DNA of 52,214 nt, taken from contig JAUXHN010000006.1 in the NCBI GenBank assembly GCA_030621515.1, positions 1 through 52,214 on the forward strand. The letters are read 5' to 3'. This stretch comes from Deltaproteobacteria bacterium (lineage in GTDB: Bacteria > Myxococcota_A > Polyangia > JAAYKL01). Positions 34,748 through 49,471 of the stretch are shown piece after piece. The notes under the pieces are model-generated. The model saw only the letters and a program-made list of their open reading frames with translations. It made no database searches and had not been told where the DNA came from. Every line of letters begins with the position of its first letter. Positions within the stretch are counted from its first letter, which is position 1. A program made the position numbers and the translations under genes.

Positions 34748-37381
34748 TCAAACGCCTTTGGTGTTCTCGAAGGTCAGTTTCTCCCCGTCCCCTTCGATGA
34801 CGAGTCGATCTCCCCGAGTGACGTCACGGGAGAGAACCAGTTTTGCGACCGGGCCCTCGATCAGCCGCTGGATCGTGCGCCGCATGGGACGGGCGCCGAG
34901 CTCCGGGTCGAAGCCGCCCGCCGCGATCAGCGTGTCGACGGCGCCTTCCCCGACCTCGAGGGACACTCCCTGTTCGGTTTCCAGCTGTCTTCCGAGCTGG
35001 TTCAGCATGAGCATGGCGATCTCGCCGACCTCGGGTCTGGTCAACGGTGCGAAAACCAGGGGCTCGTCGATCCGGTTCCACAGCTCCGGCGCAAGCGCCT
35101 CCCGGGCGGAGGCAAGAATGGACTCACAGATTTTATCCCCGTCGGGCTCGGGCTCGTCTTCACCGGCACTGAAGCCCACCCGCCGCCTGGGGGACGAGAG
35201 GTTCCTCATATCGGAACCGAGGTTGCTCGTCATGACAATTACCGTGTTTTCGAAGACGATGGTGCGTCCCTTGCCGTCGGTCAGGCGACCGTAGTCGAGG
35301 ACCTGGAGCAGAATCTGCAACACATCCCGGTGGGCTTTCTCTATCTCGTCGAGCAGGATCAGGCAGTAGGGGCGCTTTCTAACCGCCTCTGTGAACTGCC
35401 CACCATCCTCGTGCCCTACGTACCCGGGCGGCGCCCCGATCATGCGGGCCACGGCGTGAGCTTCCGAAAACTCGGTCATGTCCAGTCGTATCATGGAATT
35501 TTGGTCCGTGAAGAGCAGGTTCGCGAGTACTTTTGCGGTTTCGGTCTTGCCCACACCGGTCGGCCCGAGGAAGAGCAGCGACCCGATGGGGCGCCCCGAT
35601 CTGAAACCGGCGGCGTTGCGGCGCAGCGTTTCCCCAAGCGCATCGAGAACATGGCGGTGGCCGATGATACGTTCGGCCAGATCCGATTCCAGGTTGAGCA
35701 GGCGATCCTGGTCGCTTGCATTCAGACGCTTTGCGGGGACGCCGATCTGTTCGGCCAGGACATCGGAGATATCCTCGTCGGACACCAGGCCGGCATGGGA
35801 TCTGCGAACCCTGGCTCCCGCCAGATCCAGCAACGCGAGCGCCTTGTCCGGCAACGCGCGGTCGTGAATGTATCTGGACGACAGCTTCACCGCCGCCCTG
35901 AGGGCCTCCGGGGTGTAGGAGAGCTGATGGTGTTCGGCGTAGGACGGCGCCGCGCCTTCGATTATCCGCACGGCCTCGTCGTGGTCCGGCTCGTCGATCT
36001 CGATGACCGTGAAGCGCCGGGCGAGGGCTGGATCCGATTCCACGTGGTGGGAGTACTCTTCGCATGTGGTGGCCGCGATACAGGGCATCTCCCCGCGACC
36101 GAGGGACACCTTGAGATCCTGGACGGCCTCCGCGCCGTCCGGGGAAGCCAGAAGTGAGTGTATCTCGTCGAAGAACAGGACCACCCGCCCGTTGGAGCGG
36201 ATGACCTCCTCCCGCAGAGCATCAAACCGTTCGGACAGGGCGCCCCTCAGGGAGGTTCCCGATAGCAGGTCTCCTGATCTGACCTCCAGCAGAATACGGT
36301 CCTCGAGCCCGGGGGCCTCTCCTTTTACGAGCTTGCAGGCGAGGCCCTCGACGATCGCGGTCTTTCCGACTCCGGGGGCTCCCACCAGACAGGGGCTGTT
36401 GGCCCGCCGTTTGTTGAGCACGTCGGCGATCCGTTCCATCTCGCGTTCGCGGCCTATGATCTCCTCCACATGGCCCCTTGCGGCGTCGGCCGTGATGTTT
36501 CGCCCGATGGCGGCCAGGGTTGGAAATTCGGATGGAGACAGGTCGAATCGCGAGTGTGGATCGGAACCGAAGAGAACCGGTTCAGGGGTGATCGGAACTG
36601 CCCGTTGTTTTAGTTGCACATCAGCCTGAGCGCTTTCAACAGGAGCCGCCGAAGCCTGGCTGCCTTTTGGGGATTCGGATCTCAAAACTCTCGTTTTCTG
36701 CTGGGCCTGCTCGAGAGAAAGTCCCATATTCGAGGGAGGACGCCGCTGCGAGAGGCCCGGGAGTTCCGGTTGCCCGCAAGCGGGTTTCCCTTGTCGGCGC
36801 TTATGTGCCACGGGCTCGAATTGCAAAGGTGGAGTTCTCAGTTGATCCGGAAGGGGGGGGGATTCGCGATTGAAGTCTCCTCCCGGGCGCGCAGCGGTAT
36901 CGTTGCCGACGGAGGACCCGTGTTCCCGAGTCAGGCTGGTGGTCATGTTGCGAAGCGCCTGGTTCCTTATCACATCGACATTCAGACCCCCCTCCACGAG
37001 GATGAGGTGTCCCTCGCAGCGCCGGACGGTCGCAATTGCGGCGAGTACGTGGATCGCGGAAGGTGTGCTGACTCCCAGGGATTCCGCGTACTTGTTCGCC
37101 TTTTCAATTACTTCATCAACGATCCCGGATGGTTCCGGCTCTGAATTGCGAATTGCGTTGCGGAGTTTGGTCTCTGTCAGGCCTCTCAGGGTGAGGGTCC
37201 TCGCGGCTGCGCCGGTGCCGGTAAGGATGGCCAACAGGAGGTAACCGGTACTCATCTCCCCGTTTCCATTACGGGCAAAATCGGCGGCCCGACTCAGCAC
37301 TTCATGGATTGTCCCGGATGTCGCAATGCTCATATTCTTTAACAATTCCAAACTCTTACGAACTTCCAAGGAGTATGCCAT
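34748..37381 (-). CDS. Clp/Hsp100-type AAA+ ATPase
   Basis: An 877-residue double-AAA+ unfoldase. An N-terminal Clp-N-like double helical repeat (about 1-150) is followed by an unusual linker of some 130 residues rich in Pro, Arg and Gln (about 155-285). AAA1 has GAPGVGKT and FFDEIHS; AAA2 has GPTGVGKTETAK, LILLDEIEKAH and the TSNLG sensor region. There is no long ClpB-type middle domain. An RRRVGFSAG loop stands where ClpA/ClpC carry the IGL/LGF motif that docks to ClpP, so a ClpP partner is possible; no clpP is in the window. The ATG at 37381 lacks a ribosome binding site and has a TACAAT box five bases upstream. Confidence 0.9.
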   Translation of the reverse strand: MAYSLEVRKSLELLKNMSIATSGTIHEVLSRAADFARNGNGEMSTGYLLLAILTGTGAAARTLTLRGLTETKLRNAIRNSEPEPSGIVDEVIEKANKYAESLGVSTPSAIHVLAAIATVRRCEGHLILVEGGLNVDVIRNQALRNMTTSLTREHGSSVGNDTAARPGGDFNRESPPLPDQLRTPPLQFEPVAHKRRQGKPACGQPELPGLSQRRPPSNMGLSLEQAQQKTRVLRSESPKGSQASAAPVESAQADVQLKQRAVPITPEPVLFGSDPHSRFDLSPSEFPTLAAIGRNITADAARGHVEEIIGREREMERIADVLNKRRANSPCLVGAPGVGKTAIVEGLACKLVKGEAPGLEDRILLEVRSGDLLSGTSLRGALSERFDALREEVIRSNGRVVLFFDEIHSLLASPDGAEAVQDLKVSLGRGEMPCIAATTCEEYSHHVESDPALARRFTVIEIDEPDHDEAVRIIEGAAPSYAEHHQLSYTPEALRAAVKLSSRYIHDRALPDKALALLDLAGARVRRSHAGLVSDEDISDVLAEQIGVPAKRLNASDQDRLLNLESDLAERIIGHRHVLDALGETLRRNAAGFRSGRPIGSLLFLGPTGVGKTETAKVLANLLFTDQNSMIRLDMTEFSEAHAVARMIGAPPGYVGHEDGGQFTEAVRKRPYCLILLDEIEKAHRDVLQILLQVLDYGRLTDGKGRTIVFENTVIVMTSNLGSDMRNLSSPRRRVGFSAGEDEPEPDGDKICESILASAREALAPELWNRIDEPLVFAPLTRPEVGEIAMLMLNQLGRQLETEQGVSLEVGEGAVDTLIAAGGFDPELGARPMRRTIQRLIEGPVAKLVLSRDVTRGDRLVIEGDGEKLTFENTKGV

Positions 37382-37450
37382 AACCAATTGTACCGGGCAA
37401 ATTTTTGGTCTTTTTTTTACCGAGTTGAGCCGCTTTCGCCTCCGCCTTGG

Positions 37451-38286: not shown

Positions 38287-39357
38287 ATGAATACCAAAAG
38301 AGATTATTACGAAATTCTCGGCGTACCACTCAACGCCGACGCAAAGCAGATCAAGCAGGCGTACAGGCGCCTGGCGATGAAGTTACACCCGGACAGGAAC
38401 CCGGACAGCTCCGAAACGGAGGACCTTTTCAAGGAGGCCGCCGAGGCCTACGACGTCCTTTGCAACCCGGAAAAGAGGGAGATTTACGACCGCTTCGGAC
38501 ATGGGGGGCTTCAGGGACAGGCCGGATTCACCGGAGTCGACGACATTTTTTCGCATTTTGGTGCTATTTTCTCCGATTTCTTCGGAGGCGACGTTTTTGG
38601 AGGACGTCACAGATCCCGCCCGCCGAGACCGCCGAGGGGAGCTGACCTTCGTTACGACCTGTCTCTTAGCTTTGAAGATGCCTTCAGGGGCATCAAGAAG
38701 AAAATCGAGTTGGTTCAGTTACGAAATTGCGGCCGCTGCGAAGGAAAAGGATCGGAACCCGGAACCACTCCCGAGACCTGCAGCGATTGCCACGGTCACG
38801 GACAAGTGATCCAGCGCACCGGGTTCATGACCATAGCCACTCCCTGCCCATCCTGTCTGGGCCGCGGCAGTATAATCACTACACCTTGCGAAGAATGCGA
38901 GGGCACCGGACGAGCGGCGTACAACCGCACCGTTACCATCACTGTGCCCCCGGGGGTGGATACGGGCATGAGGTTGCGGCTCGCCGGAGAGGGAGAGGAC
39001 CCCGAGAGCCCGGGGGATCCCGGAGATCTCTACGTATTCATCGACGTGGAGCCGCATCAACTGTTCGTGCGAAACGGAAATGATCTCGAGTACACGGTTT
39101 CCATTCCATATACCCGGGCAATTCTGGGCTTCTCCATCGAGGTTGAGCTCATCGACGAGACTGTGGAGATCGAGCTGCCTCCGGGAACCCAACCCGGGGA
39201 CAGGATCCGCGTCAGCGGTAAGGGTGTTCCGTTCGTGGGCGGCAAGGGGCGCGGAGACCTGATCGTGAACGTGAAGGTTGTGCTTCCAATCGGAATAAAC
39301 GACGAGGAACGTACCCTTCTCGACAAGCTGGACAATATTTCAAACGGCAGCACGTGA
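38287..39357 (+). CDS. dnaJ: Molecular chaperone DnaJ (type I J-domain protein)
   Basis: A 356-residue protein. The J domain (1-70) has [23 protein letters not shown] and the HPD motif. A Gly/Phe-rich stretch follows with [14 protein letters not shown]. Four zinc-finger repeats ([32 protein letters not shown]) and the substrate-binding C-terminal domains come next. It recruits Hsp70 to unfolded proteins. No dnaK or grpE is visible. The start lacks a ribosome binding site. It lies between the coiled-coil gene and the signalling operon. Confidence 0.96.
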
Positions 39358-39381: not shown

Positions 39382-39410
39382 TTGCGAGGTGCTTTTCTAG
39401 TTAGTACAAT
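39382..39410 (+). promoter_or_regulatory. Putative promoter of the signalling operon
   Basis: TTGCGA (39382-39387), 17 bases, and TACAAT (39405-39410) precede the first gene by about 52 bases. A short inverted repeat CGACT-N8-AGTCG lies right after the predicted start (39415-39432), in the leader. Confidence 0.55.
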
Positions 39411-39461
39411 GCGCCGACTAGTAAAGAAGTCGTTTTGATAGTCACCGCGCAAGGGCAAGTA

Positions 39462-40778
39462 ATGAATTCATCAGTGTGTACTCATCAAACTGCAGACGAG
39501 AGCCTGCGATCGGGAGATCCCCTGCGTGCGCTTCGCATCGTGGGGCCTATGCTCGAGAACAACCCGTCCGATCTCACAGCCTGGAAGATCGGGGCGCTCG
39601 CGTTGATTGCGCGTGGCGACACAGGCCCGGGGGTAAAGAACCTGAAAAGCGTGGCCCTCGCGATGGCCGAGGAAAGGAACCCGATCCAGGCCATCGCCAC
39701 GGCGAAGGAAATACAGGATCTGGGCCAGGATCCCGGAGACCTGATCTCAGCTATCGCACGAATCTACGGATCGGAATCGGACAGAATCGAGGAGGTGGAG
39801 ATCCCGCCGCCGCCGCTACCCAGCAAACTTGAGGCGGAACCGTGGGGGATCGACCTGGACGACGAACAGGTCGTCTCAAGGGCCGGGGACGCCATGGCCA
39901 TGGCCTGGGGCGCCGCGCTCACACTCCCGGATCGGGGCATCCGGTTGCCCTACATACCCCTGCTGTCCGCCCTTGGCACCTCGGATTTCGAGCACCTCAC
40001 AAACGCGCTCGTCCGTCAGGTGGTCGAGGAGCAGGAGGTCATTATCGAGCAGGGCGCAACCGGAGACGCCATGTACATAGTGGCACAAGGATCGGTGGTG
40101 GTGATGCATCATCCCGCAGGCGGCGACCCGGTAGAGCTGGCTCGCCTGGGCCCCGGGGCGTTTTTCGGAGAGATGGCCCTGGTCTCTTCCACCACGCGGG
40201 CGGCGACGGTGCGAGCGAGCGAGCGCACTGTTCTTTTGCGAGCGGACAAGACCGAGATGGAGCATCTTGCTGAACGCTTTGCGAAAACCGGGGACGTGCT
40301 GGTTGCGTTTTGTCACGCCCGGATGCTCGAGAACCTCATGCGCGTATCTCCGGTGCTCAAACCGGTTCCCCCCAAGCGCAGACCGGACGTGATCTCCAGA
40401 TTCAACACTGATTATAGAAGCGAGGGCGAGGTGATCATCGAACAGGGCAGCGATTGTCCCGGATTGTTCCTGATCGTATCCGGAGGAGTCCGGGTGAACA
40501 AGATCGAAGGAAATGAAGATGTTGTCCTCGCCACCCTGGGCCCCGGCGATCTCTTCGGCGAGATCTCACTGCTCATGAGGAAACCTTCCACGGCGACGGT
40601 AACGGCGGAGCAAAACACGGCGTTGTTGTTCTTGCCACGAACTGAGTTCGAATCGGCCACCGCAGAGTTCCCCGAATTTCTCAAGGGCGTGTACGACATC
40701 GCCATGAACAGGGATATGCGCAACAATTCAATAATGGGCCTTCCGGCGCAGAACGCGGATGGTCTCATACTTGTGTAA
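39462..40778 (+). CDS. Protein with two cyclic-nucleotide-binding domains
   Basis: A 438-residue protein. The N-terminal 150 residues are helical, with TPR-like features. Two CNB domains follow (about 165-285 and 300-420), each with the Gly-rich and phosphate-binding-cassette turns: FGEMALVSSTTRAATV in the first, FGEISLLMRKPSTATV in the second. The first keeps the Arg that binds the cyclic phosphate; the second has a Ser there, so it may not bind or may bind another ligand. There is no helix-turn-helix, so it is not a Crp-type regulator. The ATG at 39462 has an AAGGG box. It opens a seven-gene operon. Confidence 0.85.
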   Translation: MNSSVCTHQTADESLRSGDPLRALRIVGPMLENNPSDLTAWKIGALALIARGDTGPGVKNLKSVALAMAEERNPIQAIATAKEIQDLGQDPGDLISAIARIYGSESDRIEEVEIPPPPLPSKLEAEPWGIDLDDEQVVSRAGDAMAMAWGAALTLPDRGIRLPYIPLLSALGTSDFEHLTNALVRQVVEEQEVIIEQGATGDAMYIVAQGSVVVMHHPAGGDPVELARLGPGAFFGEMALVSSTTRAATVRASERTVLLRADKTEMEHLAERFAKTGDVLVAFCHARMLENLMRVSPVLKPVPPKRRPDVISRFNTDYRSEGEVIIEQGSDCPGLFLIVSGGVRVNKIEGNEDVVLATLGPGDLFGEISLLMRKPSTATVTAEQNTALLFLPRTEFESATAEFPEFLKGVYDIAMNRDMRNNSIMGLPAQNADGLILV

Positions 40779-40781
40779 GCC

Positions 40782-41369
40782 ATGAAGAACACGAAACAGG
40801 GACCGCCTTTGGTAGTATCTTTATTGCTCGCGCTCGCGGGCATGGGCGGGCTCGCCACAGCGATTGTGCTTGTGCCCTCCATGGTGCGGCAGTTCGCCAC
40901 CGCTCGAAACACAGACCCCTCACCGGTTATCCACAAAACGCGGAAAAGCCCGGATTCCTCCCCCAAGCCGGTCGCGACGGTCAACGCCGTACAGACAGAA
41001 GAGGTCGAGGAGAAGGTCGAGGAGAAAATCGAGGAGAAGGTCGAGGAGAAGAATCCCGTGGCTGCTTCGGTAACACAATGGATCATCGAACTCGATCCGG
41101 GAAACTACGAGATCATTAATGGGGGTGAAGCAACGGTGGATGCGATCGTGCACTTCCTCACGACGAACGAGGACGCCAGGGTCAAGCTCACGGGAGTCAA
41201 TCACCCCAACAAGAGCACAAAACGTTCGAAGCAGGCGGCCCGGATCATAAGGGAGGAGATCATCAGGGATGTGGGAATAGCGAAGCACCGGGTCTCAATC
41301 GCTGAAACACAGGAGCCGGAGGTGACGGGCCTCCTGGTGCGCGCCGAGATCATGAGGGGGAGGCGATGA
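40782..41369 (+). CDS. Membrane-anchored protein with a divergent OmpA-like C-terminus
   Basis: A 195-residue protein. One membrane helix (about 9-34) is followed by a Lys/Glu repeat (EEVEEKVEEKIEEKVEEK, about 74-91) and a C-terminal domain (about 98-195). That domain resembles OmpA-like peptidoglycan-binding folds: VKLTGVNHPNK, KRSKQAARIIREEI and a closing strand. The usual Asp and Arg residues are not all present, so the match is tentative. It lies three bases after the previous stop and overlaps the next start by 4 bases. Confidence 0.65.
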   Translation: MKNTKQGPPLVVSLLLALAGMGGLATAIVLVPSMVRQFATARNTDPSPVIHKTRKSPDSSPKPVATVNAVQTEEVEEKVEEKIEEKVEEKNPVAASVTQWIIELDPGNYEIINGGEATVDAIVHFLTTNEDARVKLTGVNHPNKSTKRSKQAARIIREEIIRDVGIAKHRVSIAETQEPEVTGLLVRAEIMRGRR

Positions 41370-41947
41370 CGTTCCTGTTCGCACTAATGATACTGGCCGT
41401 TTTTCTCGGCGGGGTACTCCTGTGGTTATCGGGATTGACCGTCGGCCTTCGCTCCGGCTCCGAGTTGCAGGACAACACGGAACTCGTGAAGCTCCGAGGG
41501 GACAGGGACAAGCTTACGGCCGAGGCTGTCCGGGTCGTCGAAGAAATGGAGCGCGTGGAAAACGAGATGACCATGGCCGCAGAAGAGATGAAGCGCCTCA
41601 GGGACGAGAACGAGGCATTGAAATCCAATGGCGCCTCCCCAAAAAACAAATCTTCACCCCCCAAGCCGCCGCCGTTACCCCCCAAGCCGCCGCCGATACC
41701 CGTCAAGGTCCCCTCGGAAATACCCGAGAGTTCGGATCCATCCGGGGGCGCCGGGGCGCGGAGGGACCGAAATAGCTCCGGATTCAAGACCATGTCCATT
41801 GACAACAGGAGCCAGTCCGTATCCGGCACAGATCACGATCGTTTGCGGCAGTCGTTCGATCAGACTGTTCGCGAGAAGGATCGCCTCGAAACGGAACTCG
41901 CCCGCACACAGCAGGAGCTACAACTCCTGAAGATGCGACAAAAATGA
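41366..41947 (+). CDS. Membrane protein with coiled coils and a Pro-rich segment
   Basis: A 193-residue protein. A membrane helix (about 4-26) precedes a coiled coil (about 38-85), a Pro/Lys-rich stretch (about 95-118, PPLPPKPPPIPVK) and a second coiled coil at the C-terminus (about 155-190). The layout fits a structural linker. Both borders are 4-base ATGA overlaps, so it is translated with its neighbours. No family was recognised. Confidence 0.7.
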   Translation: MTFLFALMILAVFLGGVLLWLSGLTVGLRSGSELQDNTELVKLRGDRDKLTAEAVRVVEEMERVENEMTMAAEEMKRLRDENEALKSNGASPKNKSSPPKPPPLPPKPPPIPVKVPSEIPESSDPSGGAGARRDRNSSGFKTMSIDNRSQSVSGTDHDRLRQSFDQTVREKDRLETELARTQQELQLLKMRQK

Positions 41948-42240
41948 GCATACGAGCATACGAAAGAAGCGATCTGCCAATCGAGGAGAAGTTACCCTCA
42001 CTGGGAAAACGGTTTCCATGCCTGGCAGGAGCCCGTGGTCTCGATCCATGGGATTCCACCGAATTTTACGAGTGGGTGTCCCAACAGGAAAATGGGGGTA
42101 GCGCCTACCACGCCGGTCACCTGTTGCTGAACCTGTCCGGTGATGGCCCCTGGGAGTCGTTCGACATCCTGGCTGCCAGACGGGTGTGGACACCGGACGA
42201 CAGGCAGATCTTCATCAATTGGATAAAGGTATGGCAATAA
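41944..42240 (+). CDS. Small conserved-operon hypothetical protein
   Basis: A 98-residue soluble protein without signal or membrane segment. It is rich in Trp, with motifs SAYHAGHLLLNLSG and TPDDRQIFINWIKVW. I do not recognise it. It overlaps the previous gene by 4 bases and is followed without a gap by the acyltransferase gene, so its reality rests on the tight packing. Confidence 0.7.
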   Translation: MSIRAYERSDLPIEEKLPSLGKRFPCLAGARGLDPWDSTEFYEWVSQQENGGSAYHAGHLLLNLSGDGPWESFDILAARRVWTPDDRQIFINWIKVWQ

Positions 42241-43137
42241 ATGCCCCTGCCGCCCCTGAAGAACCCCTCCAAACCACTCACCATTATTCGCGGCATTGCA
42301 CTGGGAGTGCCGGCGGCGCTGTTTCTTCTGGTGACGCTGATGACCGTCAACTGCGCCCAGGTGCTGTTTCTGATCATCGCGCCGTTTTCCAAGAGAACCT
42401 ATCTGAACTTAAACAGATGGGCCGCAAATTGGTGGTTTGGGTTGTGCGTGAAAGTGGGTCGGGGGGTGCACGGGGTCAACCTGGAGCTGACCGGCGATCC
42501 TGTCCGAACCGGGGAAAACGCGGTGCTGGTAGTGAACCATCAGGAGATGACCGACATCGTTTTCCTCTTCATGGTCGCGCAAGCAGGAGGACGACTGGGT
42601 GATCTGAAGTGGTTTGTAAAGGATGCGGTCAAATATGTTCCGGGAGTCGGCTGGGGCCTATTTCTGCTGGACAATCTGTTCGTGAAACGCCGCTGGTCTT
42701 CGGACAAGGATTCCATCGAGGCTGTCTTCGCCCGACTGAAACGTAACGAGATCCCATTCTGGCTGGTCCTCTTCGCCGAGGGAACACGGATAACGCAGGA
42801 GAAACTGGTTCGCAGTCGACGGATCGCTCAGAAGAAAAACATGAAGCCTCTGTCACACCTGTTGATCCCTCACGCGAAGGGATTCGTCGCATCCCTGGAA
42901 GGGCTGGGAGATCGACTCGACGCTGTGTATGACATTACCATCGCATACGAGAAGGGTGTGCCCACTCTGGGTCAGTACATCCTTGGCTTTGTGGAGAGGG
43001 CTCACATTCACGTGAAGCGATTCGACGCGAACGATCTCCCTGCCGGACATCAGGCCCTCTCCTTGTGGTTGAACCAACGCTTCGAGGACAAGGACGCTCT
43101 GCTTGACGAGTTCTTCTCCCAGGGCGCGTTTCGATGA
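42241..43137 (+). CDS. PlsC-type lysophospholipid acyltransferase
   Basis: A 298-residue membrane enzyme of the glycerolipid acyltransferase superfamily. A hydrophobic N-terminal segment (about 14-48) is followed by the acceptor motif NHQEMTD (NHxxxxD, catalytic His100), the WFVKD strand and the substrate motif FAEGTR (E180). It resembles 1-acyl-glycerol-3-phosphate acyltransferases, with the longer C-terminal part of eukaryote-like members. It should add an acyl chain to a lysolipid; the substrate is unknown. It sits in the signalling operon, directly before the two sensor kinases. Confidence 0.9.
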   Translation: MPLPPLKNPSKPLTIIRGIALGVPAALFLLVTLMTVNCAQVLFLIIAPFSKRTYLNLNRWAANWWFGLCVKVGRGVHGVNLELTGDPVRTGENAVLVVNHQEMTDIVFLFMVAQAGGRLGDLKWFVKDAVKYVPGVGWGLFLLDNLFVKRRWSSDKDSIEAVFARLKRNEIPFWLVLFAEGTRITQEKLVRSRRIAQKKNMKPLSHLLIPHAKGFVASLEGLGDRLDAVYDITIAYEKGVPTLGQYILGFVERAHIHVKRFDANDLPAGHQALSLWLNQRFEDKDALLDEFFSQGAFR

Positions 43138-45305
43138 ATCTGTTTGTTTTATTGCCACTGTTGTCGTTTGTCGTGCTCGTGTTTGTGTGGTCGTTCGTCT
43201 TCGGACAACGGCGAAACGATCCGGTCAATAACGCCTACCTGATCTTCACTGGTATCGGCGCGACATGGCTTACTCTGGAGCTTCTGCTGTACGTACCAGG
43301 ATTGTCAGGCTACGAGCACCTGCTGCTACACGCGGTCATCCCGTTCTGGATGATGACCGGATTTCTCTTTCTCAACTTTACCTACAAGCTCACCGATCGA
43401 AAACCGGACCTGATCTACTGGCTGATCCTGGCCGGAACGACAATGGGAATCGGGGTCGACCTGTTCACCGACTATATACTGGCAGGCCACACGAGCCACT
43501 ACTGGGGCGTGGCCGACGGAAGGAACCCGATACCTCACACCCTGATATGCATTCCCAACGCTGCCGGCGGAGCCCTCGGCCTCCTGTTGATCTTGCTGGA
43601 TCACGGAAAGATCGACGATGGCGACAGGAAGGCCGCCTACCAGTCCATACTCCTGGGCGGTTCTTTAACGCTCACGGCGATGGTCACCATGAACATCATC
43701 ATACCCAACTTCTTCGAGATCGACGATTTTCCCCGCTACGGATCCTCGGCCCTGGTGGTGTTCGCTCTCATCATCTACCGCGCAACGATCAAATATCGAT
43801 TCATGACGATCACCGTGGATCAGGTGGCAGAAGAACTTTTCGAGGACATGCGGGACGGCGTGGTGCTCATTGACGGGCAGGGGGCGATCACCAGGACCAA
43901 CAGCGCGATACGGAGCATGTTCGGCATGGGCCCTCATCATGTGGTTGGGATGAACCTGGACGAGTTGATACCCCGGGTCGATCCGGCCGCCGACGGCGGG
44001 GACGGGCGGCTCAAGGTGGACAGGAGCGGAATCTCCAGGATCTATTCCGTCTCCCGGCCCAACAAGACCCACGGGGAGTTGGTACACGGAAAGATTCTGA
44101 TCGTCCGGGACGAGACCGAGGAGATCGAGGCTCAGGAGATCTTGAAAAAAGACCGGGACGACCTCGAGGTTATGGTGCTGCGCAGGACCGAGGAGTCCCT
44201 TCAGGCCCAGCGGATGGAGGCCATCGGATTGCTCACGGGCGGGGTTGCCCACGACTTCAACAACCTGCTCACTGCTATCATGGGGTTCGCGACGGCCGCG
44301 CGGGACGATCTGACCGAGTCGGACCCGATCCGGGAGGACATGGAAGAGGTGGTGGTGGCGACAAAACGCGCCCGGGATATCATCGGCCAGATGATCTCCA
44401 TCAGCTCCACCACAAAGATCGAACCCAGACAGGTAGCCATACCCGATCTCCTGGACGAGGTTCTCAATCTCCTGGAGGCCTCCACATCCGAGTCCATCAA
44501 GATCCAGCGGGACTACGGCAACGAAGAAATGTACGTGATGGCGGATATCACCGGACTTCACCAGGTGATCATGAATATCGGCACCAATGCATTGCACGCC
44601 ATGGAAGAATCCGGTGGAACCCTCAGCGTCGGCCTGGCCCGTGTGGATTCGAATGTATGTATAACCATGGCCGACACGGGCGAGGGGATCGCAAAAAACA
44701 CACTCGATCAGATTTTCGTCCCGTTCTTCACCACCAGGCAGAGCAAGAAGGGATCCGGCCTGGGCCTTGCCATGGTCCTGAATATCATTCAGCAGCACCG
44801 GGGAACCATCGAGGCCACCTCGGAGGAGGGGAAGGGCGCCACCTTCAAGATCTATCTTCCCTGGATCGACAAGAACGACAACGTATCCGAATCGGGAGGC
44901 TTTTCGATCATTGGAGGAAGCGAGCGAATTCTCTTGCTCGACGACAAGGAGCAGGTGCTCAGGGTGGAAAAGCGTATGCTCGAGCCTCTTGGCTACCGGG
45001 TGACGGCCTTCTCCGAGCCTCAGCGGGCCATTGAGACCATACGTGAAAACAAGCGCTCCTTCGATCTTGTGGTCACGGATCTCTCAATGCCCGGCATGTC
45101 CGGGATCGAGTTCGGTGAACAGGTTCTTGAAATGTGTCCCGATCTCCCGATCATCCTGGTCTCGGGAAACCTGCGGGAGGATGACAAGGCACGGGCCCAT
45201 GAACTGGGTTTCGGCGCGGCCCTGTCCAAACCCCTGCCCAAGGCCGTGCTGGCATCCAAAATTCGCGCGCTTCTCGAAGGCGGCAAGCGAGGGGGCAAAC
45301 CATGA
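43134..45305 (+). CDS. Hybrid sensor histidine kinase with 7-TM N-terminus and receiver
   Basis: A 723-residue protein. Seven membrane helices (about 3-216) form the sensor; a PAS domain (about 225-345) follows. The HisKA domain has AHDFNNLL with the phosphorylated His373. The ATPase domain has its N-box around NIGTNALHAM, then DTGEGI and GSGLGLA. A receiver domain closes the protein (LLDDKEQ, phosphoacceptor Asp649 in VVTDLSMPGMSG). The 4-base overlap with the acyltransferase gene and with the next kinase gene shows co-translation. Confidence 0.93.
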   Translation: MNLFVLLPLLSFVVLVFVWSFVFGQRRNDPVNNAYLIFTGIGATWLTLELLLYVPGLSGYEHLLLHAVIPFWMMTGFLFLNFTYKLTDRKPDLIYWLILAGTTMGIGVDLFTDYILAGHTSHYWGVADGRNPIPHTLICIPNAAGGALGLLLILLDHGKIDDGDRKAAYQSILLGGSLTLTAMVTMNIIIPNFFEIDDFPRYGSSALVVFALIIYRATIKYRFMTITVDQVAEELFEDMRDGVVLIDGQGAITRTNSAIRSMFGMGPHHVVGMNLDELIPRVDPAADGGDGRLKVDRSGISRIYSVSRPNKTHGELVHGKILIVRDETEEIEAQEILKKDRDDLEVMVLRRTEESLQAQRMEAIGLLTGGVAHDFNNLLTAIMGFATAARDDLTESDPIREDMEEVVVATKRARDIIGQMISISSTTKIEPRQVAIPDLLDEVLNLLEASTSESIKIQRDYGNEEMYVMADITGLHQVIMNIGTNALHAMEESGGTLSVGLARVDSNVCITMADTGEGIAKNTLDQIFVPFFTTRQSKKGSGLGLAMVLNIIQQHRGTIEATSEEGKGATFKIYLPWIDKNDNVSESGGFSIIGGSERILLLDDKEQVLRVEKRMLEPLGYRVTAFSEPQRAIETIRENKRSFDLVVTDLSMPGMSGIEFGEQVLEMCPDLPIILVSGNLREDDKARAHELGFGAALSKPLPKAVLASKIRALLEGGKRGGKP

Positions 45306-47095
45306 GGGTCATGGCGCTCATTCACCTTGTTGCCCTGGCGGGTTTCCTGTTCCTCGGAGCGACTCTCTACGCTCAGCGCGGAAGGTCGGATCCCGCCGGC
45401 GGGAGCCTGCGGGTGTTCCTGGCAAACATGGCCACGTGGGTGCTTCTTGAGATCTTCCTCTATTTCCCCATGTCCGTAGGCCTGGAGGATGCTATCTACA
45501 GGGTCATGGCCGTGTGCTGGATTCCGTCGTCCTTCTGGTTTCTTCGGTTCGTCTACCGCTTGCTCAAGATAAAAAACGATTGGATCTACTTTTTGTTCGC
45601 GGGTATCTCCTTCGTCGGAGTAATTGTCTACGTTACGACAGACCTGGGATTGGCCGGAACAGAACGCCATAAGTGGGGAGCCTCGGATATCCGCGCCGGG
45701 CATTTCCTTTTCTTTTCCGCGATTCCCATGACGGCCGGCGTGATGGCAGTATTGCTCTCCATTCGTCGATCTTATTCGCCCAATGTAAACGTCATCCGCA
45801 AGCCCTTGAGAATAGTCGCCTCGGGAGTGCTCCTCGTGTTGGCCACCTCGGCATCGTTCGAGATCATGATCATGTGCACCAATGGAATCTGGAGCACCGT
45901 CAGGTTGAGCTCGTGCACGCCGCTTCTCCTGATCCCCTTTGTGGTATACGCCGCAAAAAAATTCGATTTTCTGTCCGGCGGGATGGTGCGCGTGGCCGAG
46001 GAGATCTTCGAGGATGTCCGTGACGGCATCGTTCTGGTGGATCGCAATGGTCTGGTACAACGAGTCAATCCCGCCGCTCAATCCATGCTCGGCATCGCCG
46101 CAAATACGGCCGAGGGATCTCCTGTGGATACGATCTTGAAAAACTGGAGCATCCTCAGGGAAAAGAGAAAAGGGGAGATGACCGTTCGCGACCGGACTCG
46201 GAGCGACAGATTCCTCGATATGTCGGTCTCGATCGTCACGTCTCACTCCGCTCACCGGGGCTGGATAGTTCTGATCCGAGATTTGACGGAGCAAAAAAAC
46301 GCCCGCGAAGTGCTCCAACGCTCGTTCAAAGAACTTGAAGCGGAGATCGAGAGCAGGACCGAAGAGATCAGGCGTACCCGGCGAATGGAAGCCATCGGAA
46401 CCATGACCGGCGGCATCGCCCACGACTTCAATAACCTGCTCGCCGCGATCATCGGGTTCACATCGGCAGCGAAAGAGGACCTGCCCGTGGAGCACAAGAT
46501 CCAGAGAGATCTCAACGAGGTTCTCACCGCCGCCAACAGGGCTCGGGACATCGTCGATCAAATGCTCGAGCTAGGAAGGCACTCGGACCCTCAGCGGGAG
46601 ATGATCGAAATAGGCTCTTTCGTGGAGCGAGTGTTGACCCTCGTCGAGTCGTTCCTGCCCGCATCCATATCCCTGGAGCGGCAACCCCTCAAGGACGAGG
46701 CCTTCGTGATGGGAGATTCAACCCAACTTCACCAGGCGATCATGAACCTGTGCACCAACGGCTATCAGTCGATGAAGGAGACCGGAGGGGAGCTGGTCGT
46801 GTCCGTCAGGATCATCGGGATGTCAATCGGGGCGGGCAGCTCCCGAAAACCCCTGGAGCCCGGGCAATCCGTCCGCATCTCGGTAGCCGATACGGGACCC
46901 GGCATCGACCGTGATATGCTGGATCGCGTCTTCGAACCCACCGGGACCACCACGCCGGACTTGAGCGACGTGGGCCTGGCCATGGCCATGCGTATAGCGC
47001 GGGAACACGACGGCACGATAATGGTCGAGAGCGAGAAAGGCCGGGGTTCCATCTTTTCCCTGTTGCTACCGGTGGCCAACCCTAATCCCCGATGA
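45302..47095 (+). CDS. Sensor histidine kinase, 7-TM paralogue without receiver
   Basis: A 597-residue paralogue of the preceding kinase. It has a similar seven-helix N-terminus (about 3-215), a PAS-like domain and HisKA motif AHDFNNLL with His374. In the ATPase domain DTGPGI is present, but where GxGLGLA is expected the sequence reads SDVGLAMAM, and the ATP lid is shortened, so ATP binding may be impaired. There is no receiver domain. It ends the operon; its 3' end overlaps the convergent yjbQ gene by 14 bases. Confidence 0.9.
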
Positions 47096-47630: not shown

Positions 47631-47652
47631 CAAAGTGCAAAGAGGGGAGATC

Positions 47653-47913
47653 ATGGACCGTTTGAATGCCAGCGAAGCACGTAGTGATTTTGCGGATGTG
47701 CTCAATCGAGTGGCCTATCGTGGAGAGCGAATCGTGCTCCATCGTCGCGGCAAGGACGTCGCGGCGATTGTATCGGTTGAAGACTTGAAGCTTTTGGAGC
47801 AGCTCGAAGACGAGAGAGACTTGAAGATGGCCAGGGCGGCGCTCAAAGAAGCCGAGAAGAAAGGCACAAAGAAACTTGCTTCTCTCATGAAGGAGCTCGG
47901 TGACTCGAGATAG
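47653..47913 (+). CDS. Type II antitoxin, Phd/YefM family
   Basis: An 86-residue protein. The N-terminal 55 residues are the Phd/YefM DNA-binding dimerisation domain (NASEARSDFADVLNRVAYRGERIVLHRRGKDVAAIVS). The rest is a charged helix that would wrap around the toxin. The ATG at 47653 follows an AGAGGGGAG box. The toxin gene overlaps its end by 14 bases. Confidence 0.93.
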   Translation: MDRLNASEARSDFADVLNRVAYRGERIVLHRRGKDVAAIVSVEDLKLLEQLEDERDLKMARAALKEAEKKGTKKLASLMKELGDSR

Positions 47914-48175
47914 GTCTTTGGTATACACAATCGAAATCGCGCCGGCGGCAGAGCGGGCTATCAAAAAGCTGCCTGCCGATGTGCGTAAACGAATATTCAA
48001 GTCTTTGATTTCTTTGGAACGGGATCCACGCCCGCATAAAGTCAAGAAATTGAGCGGCGAACTTGATCTGTATCGGCTCCGGATCGGTGACTATCGGATC
48101 GTCTACCAGGTTAAAGATGCCGTGCTTGTGGTCGTGGTGGTGAAGGTCGGTCATCGACGTGAAGTGTATCGCTGA
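47900..48175 (+). CDS. Type II toxin, RelE/ParE family
   Basis: A 91-residue toxin: a short first helix (PAAERAIKKLPADVRKRI), then the strand motifs VKKLSGELDLYRLRIGDYRIVYQV and a C-terminal VVVKVGHRREVYR. RelE-type members cut mRNA on the ribosome with Arg and His residues, which are present in GDYRIVY and GHRREVY. The start is GTG with an AAGGAG box inside the antitoxin gene. With the antitoxin it forms a complete pair. Confidence 0.93.
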   Translation: MTRDRSLVYTIEIAPAAERAIKKLPADVRKRIFKSLISLERDPRPHKVKKLSGELDLYRLRIGDYRIVYQVKDAVLVVVVVKVGHRREVYR

Positions 48176-48266
48176 ACTAACCATGAAATAGAGCCTGTGC
48201 GCCTATCCACCCTCTCGAATAACCTTGCTAATATGAATGCACGCTTCAGATTGGCAAGGTTAAAAC

Positions 48267-48295
48267 TTGGTTTTCCTTCGTATAACGAGTATAAG
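48267..48295 (+). promoter_or_regulatory. Putative promoter of the AAA_14/DUF4143 gene
   Basis: TTGGTT (48267-48272), 17 bases, and TATAAG (48290-48295) precede the ATG by 6 bases, so the predicted start falls on the ATG itself. Confidence 0.45.
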
Positions 48296-48301
48296 TAAGG
48301 A

Positions 48302-49471
48302 ATGCAGGGATACATCACGAGACAACTTACCGACCAGGTAACGACAAAGCTGAAGAACAACCCGGTAGTGGCGATTCTGGGCCCAAGGCAGTGTGGCAAG
48401 ACAACGCTGGCCAGACAGATTGTGGAAGAAAACAACGAGTCGGTGTACCTGGATCTCGAACATCCCGCCGATCTGGCAAAGCTCGAAGATCCCCTCGCCT
48501 TTTTCAACCTTCACAAACAGCAACTGATTTGCCTCGACGAAATCCAGCGCGCTCCCGAACTGTTTTCAATCCTCAGGGGTGTCGTCGACAGACAGCGCGA
48601 AGCGGGCCAGTTTCTCGTCCTCGGTTCCGCGTCACCGGATCTGATCCGTCAGAGTTCGGAGTCGCTGGCCGGACGAATCTCCTATCTCGAGTTGAAGCCG
48701 TTCATGTTCATGGAGGTCGACGACGATGGGCCGTCGAGCACCGAACAGGATCTCTGGTTGAGAGGCGGTTTCCCCAGAAGCTATCTTGCGGGGGATGGAG
48801 ATACCAGTTTCGAATGGCGCCAGGACTTTATCCGCACCTTTCTTGAACGCGACATCGGCATGCTCGGCTTTCGGATGCCACCGGCCCGGCTGGGGCGTTT
48901 TTGGAGAATGTGCGCCCACGTACATGGTTCCTTGTTGAACGCGTCCAAGTTGTCCGATTCTCTTGGTGTCAGTTCTCATACAGTTCGCTCATATCTGGAT
49001 CTGCTGGAGCAGACTTTTATGGTTCGCGTACTCTTTCCCGATACCCCTAATTTGAAGAAGCGACTGATCAAGTCGCCAAAAATATTCTTGAGAGACAGTG
49101 GGATCCTCCACGCGTTGCTCGCCATTCGGACTCACGATGACCTGCTCTCTCATCCGATGAGGGGTTCCTCCTACGAAGGATTTGCCATGGAGAATATCCT
49201 GGCGTCTGCGCCTGACTGGGAACCTTCATTCTATCGAACACGCGCGGGAGCGGAAATAGACCTTGTTCTCCGAAGAGGCCGCCACTCGCTCGCGTTTGAA
49301 ATCAAGTCATCCACCGTTCCAAAAGTTTCGCGAGGTTTCTGGCAAGCCCTTGAAGACATTTCTCCCGATGGCGCGTATGTCGTCGCGCCTGTCGAAGAGC
49401 CATACCCAATCAAACACGGCGTAACTGTTATTCCGTTAGCGCAAGCCGCGAACATAATCCACACCCGGTGA
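48302..49471 (+). CDS. AAA_14/DUF4143 ATPase with nuclease-like C-terminus
   Basis: A 389-residue protein. The N-terminal AAA_14 domain has Walker A GPRQCGKTTL, Walker B LICLDEIQ and the LVLGSASPDL sensor strand. A winged-helix-like part is followed by the DUF4143 domain with KIFLRDSGILHALL. The C-terminal segment EIDLVLRRG...FEIKSS matches a PD-(D/E)xK nuclease pattern. These proteins are widely spread, often next to mobile or defence genes, but their role is unknown. An AAGGA run abuts the ATG too closely to act as ribosome binding site; the mRNA may be leaderless. Confidence 0.9.
   Translation: MQGYITRQLTDQVTTKLKNNPVVAILGPRQCGKTTLARQIVEENNESVYLDLEHPADLAKLEDPLAFFNLHKQQLICLDEIQRAPELFSILRGVVDRQREAGQFLVLGSASPDLIRQSSESLAGRISYLELKPFMFMEVDDDGPSSTEQDLWLRGGFPRSYLAGDGDTSFEWRQDFIRTFLERDIGMLGFRMPPARLGRFWRMCAHVHGSLLNASKLSDSLGVSSHTVRSYLDLLEQTFMVRVLFPDTPNLKKRLIKSPKIFLRDSGILHALLAIRTHDDLLSHPMRGSSYEGFAMENILASAPDWEPSFYRTRAGAEIDLVLRRGRHSLAFEIKSSTVPKVSRGFWQALEDISPDGAYVVAPVEEPYPIKHGVTVIPLAQAANIIHTR

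Follow-up and report, generated by a model that had tools for sequence, protein, structure and literature searches.

A closely packed seven-gene locus with a tandem pair of histidine kinases, an acyltransferase and a putative envelope module in one genus of Polyangia

The window analysed here is a stretch of 52,214 nucleotides from the genome of a Deltaproteobacteria bacterium (Myxococcota_A, Polyangia; GenBank assembly GCA_030621515.1, contig JAUXHN010000006.1). Between positions 39462 and 47095 it carries seven closely packed genes, g1 to g7, all on the plus strand (Table 1). Consecutive genes are separated by 3 bases (g1/g2) or by none (g4/g5), or they overlap by 4 bases (g2/g3, g3/g4, g5/g6 and g6/g7), and each of the four overlaps in this genome is ATGA. 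An earlier sequence-only reading had reported the same gaps, overlaps and strand, and the coordinates agree with it. The source genome (G000) was compared with two other genomes of its genus (G001 and G002), and the six junctions are identical in all three when positions, starts and stops are set side by side. This preserved packing supports the earlier claim of one operon, and we infer a single transcript. The membrane-centred content that had been proposed for the operon is also supported. The ratio of nonsynonymous to synonymous substitution rates (dN/dS, NG86) is 0.11-0.44 across g1-g7 in the three genomes, which points to purifying selection on every gene; the lowest values belong to g1, g4 and g5, and the highest to g2.

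Table 1. Features of the seven-gene locus and its upstream neighbour, with positions in the window
Feature	Position	Strand	Description	Remarks
u1 DnaJ	38287..39357	+	Pfam DnaJ/DnaJ_C; TIGR02349 above cut-off	Old upstream neighbour of g1
Promoter-like block	39382..39410	+	TTGCGA-17-TACAAT, 5' of g1	Conserved in three genomes
g1	39462..40778	+	TPR-like N-terminus and two cyclic-nucleotide-binding (CNB) domains	
g2	40782..41369	+	Membrane-anchored; C-terminal OmpA-like fold without GHTD	
g3	41366..41947	+	One N-terminal transmembrane (TM) helix and predicted coiled coil	
g4	41944..42240	+	98 aa; no TM helix; five-helix model	
g5	42241..43137	+	YihG-like lysophospholipid acyltransferase	NHQEMTD, FAEGTR
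g6	43134..45305	+	Kinase 'a': multi-TM-PAS-HisKA-HATPase-REC	Intact motifs
g7	45302..47095	+	Kinase 'b': multi-TM-PAS-HisKA-HATPase, no REC	ATP-lid/G2 box degenerate

The family of the source organism was sampled with 14 draft genomes (G000 and 13 others), one of which is 71% complete. The support that the earlier reading had asked for, the same gene order in several distant genomes, was not found: the seven-gene set is present in 3/3 sampled genomes of the genus and in 0/11 of the other family genomes. A widely conserved g1-g7 system is rejected, the set not having been seen in these 11 of 14 drafts. Scattering of the genes in close relatives, which would speak against a common pathway, was observed in part: the acyltransferase and the kinase pair are also found apart from the set. 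The claim of one undescribed, conserved pathway is thus reduced to a real operon whose full set is confined to a genus, and the youth of this composite set weakens the case for one pathway. However striking an operon looks, it may have been put together recently, and its content alone is no proof of one old pathway. Searches of one open-access library for heterodimeric, tandem or degenerate kinase pairs, HisKA_7TM and myxobacterial DnaJ/CNB/TPR sets yielded no description of these loci.

The genes g1-g4 occur in order in eight of the 14 family genomes (G000, G001, G002, G004, G005, G010, G012 and G013). A dnaJ gene lies 5' of g1 in nine (G000-G002, G004, G007, G009, G011, G012 and G013), with G001 counted despite an insert. 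The contig ends upstream of g1 in G005, a different gene is found there in G010, and g1 is present without dnaJ in G003 and G006. Loss of the CNB protein from the module is seen in G008 (L255, 1573-4235), where dnaJ is followed directly by g2-g3 and both g1 and g4 are missing. In G007, g2-g3 and g4 are at separate sites; g4 is away from the rest of the module in G003, G006 and G011, and in G009 a different part of the genome matches g2 weakly (E 6.8e-9). Among 289 genomes of the class, the g4 profile matched 12 family genomes at E < 1e-20 and two others weakly. The genes g5-g7 follow g4 directly in the source genus only (3/14 family genomes). The lone g4 of G006 (L081, 11883-15208) is followed by a histidine kinase without an evident TM part and then by a response regulator, apparently of the sigma-54 type on visual inspection.

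HX4D and EGTR are the motif names of the acyltransferase superfamily, and the two g5 motifs in Table 1 correspond to them. The g5 protein matches PF16076 and PF01553, the latter with 50 bits against a gathering score of 23. Residues 25-290 match NF058536, the YihG family of lysophosphatidic acid acyltransferases, at E 8e-28 and 97.5 bits, below the family cut-off of 260; judged by these scores, g5 is a relative of YihG and not a member of its family. It is ruled out as the sole PlsC-type enzyme by the 8 PF01553 matches in the source genome. A search of 59 genomes found strong relatives of g5 (E < 1e-84) in 11, those of the genus among them. At the ten loci of g5 homologues read outside the genus, none of g1-g4, g6 or g7 adjoins, the sole exception being a generic receiver-domain match at a distance of about 2 kb in one; tblastn also gave a J-domain match in another locus. 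A constant neighbourhood of g5 homologues is ruled out, none being seen across the ten loci. In E. coli, YihG is described as a second enzyme with lysophosphatidic acid acyltransferase activity, which alters sn-2 acyl chains and affects flagella (PMC7277886). As described there, YihG resembles g5 in being an additional enzyme beside other acyltransferases; g5 differs in falling under the YihG cut-off and in its place in an operon with kinases.

The kinases g6 and g7 both have an N-terminal region followed by PAS, HisKA and HATPase, which is the order of HisKA_7TM-type proteins. Ahead of the kinase part, two simple scales count six hydrophobic stretches in g6 and five or six in g7; several homologues have seven. 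Of the earlier description of seven-helix kinases, a multi-helix N-terminus related to HisKA_7TM is supported; given the seven stretches of several homologues, seven helices are likely in g6 and g7 too, where five or six are counted. On its own, the N-terminal region of g6 has no meaningful Pfam match. HisKA_7TM (PF16927) is matched at E <= 1 by eight of 29 homologous regions (best 2e-12), with g6 itself not among them, and one further homologue matches at 8.7e-5 and 22.9 bits, below the cut-off of 28.6. A profile of the g6 region found matches in 28/317 genomes of the class (E < 1e-8) and in 50/377 genomes sampled in the phylum (1e-10). All kinase motifs and REC are present in g6. The histidine box of g7 is kept, its ATP lid is broken, and its HATPase score in Pfam is 63.9 bits versus 83.1 for g6.

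Kinase pairs were sought around most of the matches in the class and around a single match from the phylum sample. This survey found 14 pairs in tandem on the same strand, and in nine the two genes overlap by 4 bases. The operons of the genus account for three, and the other 11 are located apart from g1-g5. Motifs were compared in 13 pairs (3 from the genus and 10 from elsewhere). The divergent G081 pair was left out, and contig ends truncate one second and one first kinase. At G005:C133 the tandem copies have a 247-base gap between them and were placed among 16 non-pair kinases. The first glycine of the G2 (ATP-lid) box is present in all 13 readable first kinases and in 2/12 readable second kinases (G064 and G009:C335). 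HDFNN is kept in all 12 readable second kinases. The phospho-histidine of the first kinases is kept in 10/12 readable cases, being lost in G004 and G010, and the following acid in 8/12. In G004 and G010, where the first kinase has lost its histidine, the second kinase keeps it and carries REC. An alignment-free pattern check agrees with this lopsided loss of motifs. For the G2 glycine, Fisher's test between first and second kinases gives 2e-5 (2e-4 when the genus is reduced to a single row), values that serve as a guide only, the rows being related. Over the 13 pairs, the ATP motif and the phospho-histidine are favoured on different partners, the pattern looked for in a split or heterodimeric kinase; in the source operon, only g7 is damaged.

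Pfam scans at E 0.001 lend this pattern soft support. The first kinases of G004 and G010 have no HisKA and a strong HATPase (82.7 and 77.2 bits), and the second kinases of G004 and G012 show HisKA and HATPase. Lower HATPase scores were obtained for the scanned second kinases (40.3, 55.4 and 55.3 bits). The 16 non-pair kinases of the same type keep the glycine in 14/15 readable cases, the histidine in all 16 and the following acid in 11. In total, 57 proteins have the 7TM-type region, and 14 of them, outside the main motif comparison, were inspected afterwards. Eight match the kinase profile, none with a plainly lost G2, and three of these eight (all from G003; L202, L208 and L211) have the ATPase part and no histidine box by the pattern used; in the other six the reading frame of the 7TM-type region gives no kinase match. 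These proteins leave the motif picture of the non-pair kinases unchanged.

In the kinase tree, one clade (100/97) unites the first kinases of G000-G002, G004, G005, G010, G012 and G013 and holds no second kinase, so that the pair probably predates the operon. The pair at G009:C335 resembles a separate duplication (92/92).

Histidine kinases usually function as homodimers, and to our knowledge few heterodimeric or split histidine kinases have been worked out. The explanation that we favour, with somewhat better than even confidence, is a single operon that arose within one genus by the joining of three older units, and in which g6 and g7 most likely form a heteromer with divided labour. Genes g1-g4 would be an envelope module linked to dnaJ, g5 a YihG-like acyltransferase, and g6-g7 an old tandem pair of seven-transmembrane histidine kinases that can stand by itself. 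In the proposed mechanism, g6 would bind ATP and phosphorylate the g7 histidine, perhaps along with the one in g6 itself, with g7 serving as phosphoacceptor or allosteric partner of g6. The phosphate would end on the receiver domain of g6 as its exit, and an unlinked partner would take it from there. Co-translation with g5 and g1-g4 would set ratios and tie membrane-state sensing to phospholipid acylation and the envelope complex. The tandem pairs stand at differing stages of complementary decay: both kinases intact, the lid of the second lost, and the histidine of the first lost too. Such a series would allow the order of steps toward an obligate heteromeric kinase to be tested.

By analogy, g6-g7 may be a heteromeric kinase with divided labour of the kind described for FasB/FasC or CheA3/CheA4. 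FasB and FasC of group A Streptococcus are co-transcribed membrane kinases reported to heterodimerise; one partner is reported to need its kinase domain and the other its histidine (PMC12675982). The putative g6/g7 heteromer would likewise divide these roles between two membrane kinases. As described there, FasB and FasC differ from g6/g7 in having six TM helices, no receiver domain described and the response regulator FasA in the same operon, and their operon, unlike g1-g7, has no acyltransferase and no envelope module. In CheA3/CheA4 of Rhodobacter sphaeroides, catalysis and the phospho-histidine are described on separate proteins (PMC3591291, PMC6829392), which is the split proposed for g6/g7. 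The same accounts present cytoplasmic chemotaxis kinases that, unlike g6/g7 with their degenerate motifs, are missing whole domains and have a known output, CheY6.

Several observations weigh against the composite operon with a divided-labour kinase. The g6 of the source operon has every motif and could work as a homodimer. None of the seven operon genes encodes an output regulator or output-domain protein, so the target of g6-g7 would be unlinked or a partner protein. The earlier reading had the kinase signal act on lipid remodelling; gene neighbourhood agrees with this, but position alone links the kinases with the acyltransferase. Both lids are kept in the pairs of G064, G009:C335 and G081 (with a divergent HisKA, MSHEIRTP) and in the tandem copies at G005:C133. 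The acid after the histidine is lost in 5/16 non-pair kinases, so its loss is not special to first kinases, and the G010 first kinase has in-frame stops before an open frame at the contig edge and could be decaying. HisKA was absent in Pfam (0.001) from both G289 kinases although the motif is present, which makes the absence of a Pfam match soft support. The Fisher values ignore relatedness. As for the tree, its root is arbitrary and some long branches are flagged; four first kinases, those of G064, G009 and G289 among them, lie outside the first-kinase clade, and 10/12 second kinases, including that of G289 from another class, are grouped with weak support (59/67).

The foremost alternative, which we consider unlikely, is that three unrelated units are plainly packed behind one promoter and have no common function, with g6 and g7 acting apart and g7 a decaying copy. 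The confinement of the seven-gene set to one genus, the acyltransferase without a constant neighbour at ten other loci and the broken lid of g7 all agree with it, but the dN/dS of g7 (0.20-0.33) shows purifying selection, a shortened lid without the first glycine recurs among the second kinases of several genera, and the four overlaps are all preserved in three genomes. Less likely again is a variant of the favoured explanation in which g7 is not a phosphoacceptor. It would instead be a RetS-like negative pseudokinase that sequesters g6. Such a role would suit the broken lid and the missing REC of g7 in this genus, but the persistence of HDFNN in every readable second kinase, together with the placement of both histidine and REC on the second kinase in G004 and G010, speaks against it. 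A bolder version of the favoured explanation seems improbable: the 7TM sensor kinases would be a Myxococcota kinase family that exists as an obligate two-gene heteromer with fixed roles, ATP partner first and phosphohistidine partner second, kept over long evolutionary times. In one genus, gene fusion would have given this heteromer direct control over phospholipid acylation, in company with an envelope complex that has an OmpA fold, is linked to DnaJ and contains a small helical protein for which no clear structural match is seen.

The cyclic-nucleotide question concerns g1, which had been said to have two CNB domains and no DNA-binding domain. Pfam bears this out, with two CNB domains and otherwise only a weak TPR match (E 0.018). 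The pattern FGE...R is the phosphate-binding pattern of CNB domains that bind cyclic AMP or cyclic GMP. It was compared in 13 g1 homologues, of which 12 are from the family (G003, G006, G009 and G011 included, the G007 copy left out) and one is from elsewhere. The first domain, CNB-A, retains the pattern in the source genome, and its glutamate and arginine are kept in 10/13 homologues; the arginine of CNB-B is kept in 0/13. Three genomes of another family genus (labelled 'g4') have lost the arginine from both domains. Since the genes g1-g4 are still together there, cyclic-nucleotide binding is not what holds the module together. Loss of cyclases as the cause of this arginine loss is ruled out by 3, 3 and 2 class III cyclase matches in the genomes of that genus. 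The proposed cyclic-nucleotide input thus survives as a possible binding by CNB-A, to which its pattern and one class III cyclase match in the source genome point. Joint control of g5 lipid remodelling by a cyclic nucleotide (g1) and a phosphorelay (g6-g7) would agree with the tight packing and these features of CNB-A, but g1-g4 and g5-g7 are distributed separately and the arginines are lost as described, and we give this model the least credence of all.

The other three proteins of the putative envelope module are small. Two of them had been called membrane-anchored, and g2 and g3 indeed have one N-terminal hydrophobic helix each, with none in g4. The OmpA-like character claimed for one is supported for the fold of g2 by a structure model and Foldseek. 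Its C-terminal domain is modelled by AlphaFold at a mean predicted local distance difference test score (pLDDT) of 89 as a beta-alpha-beta-alpha-beta-beta fold, and the model matches OprF, OmpA and Pal (E 6e-7; the two top-ranked rows have TMq 0.76-0.80). GHTD is the usual signature of OmpA-like domains and was not found in any of nine aligned g2 homologues; profile scans gave no Pfam OmpA (PF00691) match to g2. Compared with the OmpA domains of the same genome, g2 gives a weak profile match (hhalign probability 20.6). The g2 domain is thus like the peptidoglycan-binding domains of OmpA and Pal in predicted fold, and unlike them in its profile distance and missing signature. For g4, AlphaFold predicts five helices at high confidence (pLDDT 93). 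The model has no clear PDB match (best E 4.3 in Foldseek, best Z 3.9 in a second structure comparison), a result that identifies the fold neither as new nor as known. An F-x-T motif is conserved close to the C-terminus of g3. An EEKVEEK-type repeat of g2 (40990-41055) varies in length, and g2 has 195 or 211 aa in the three genomes of the genus; g3 also varies by indels, with 193, 237 and 241 aa.

The start of g1 is most likely the ATG at 39462, because the TTG at 39435 is not conserved; a one-base shift separates it from the frame in G001 and G002, where the ATG is conserved. The promoter claimed for the operon is near-identical as a block in the three genomes, but its match to the consensus is not above chance, with 4 in the region versus 3.7 expected. 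In G001, about 2 kb of inserted DNA lies between dnaJ and g1 and leaves the promoter-like block whole. This insert (L046, 9431-11596) encodes a minus-strand open reading frame of 329 aa that is reminiscent of REP/IS200-type transposases; Pfam gave no match at 0.001. In the source genome, dnaJ is probably its own transcription unit.

Further upstream, the minus strand encodes a ClpB/ClpA-like AAA+ protein (34748-37387) that scores well below the curated cut-offs of both families. Its gene is adjoined by dnaJ and by a gene for a small protein with a signal-like helix. Downstream of the operon, overlapping genes for a Phd/YefM antitoxin and a ParE-type toxin, followed by an AAA_14/DUF4143 ATPase gene, occupy 47635-49471 between a UPF0047 gene and a Ser/Thr kinase gene. 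In G001 the end of the Ser/Thr kinase gene comes directly after UPF0047, where the contig ends, which suggests that this stretch was either inserted or lost.

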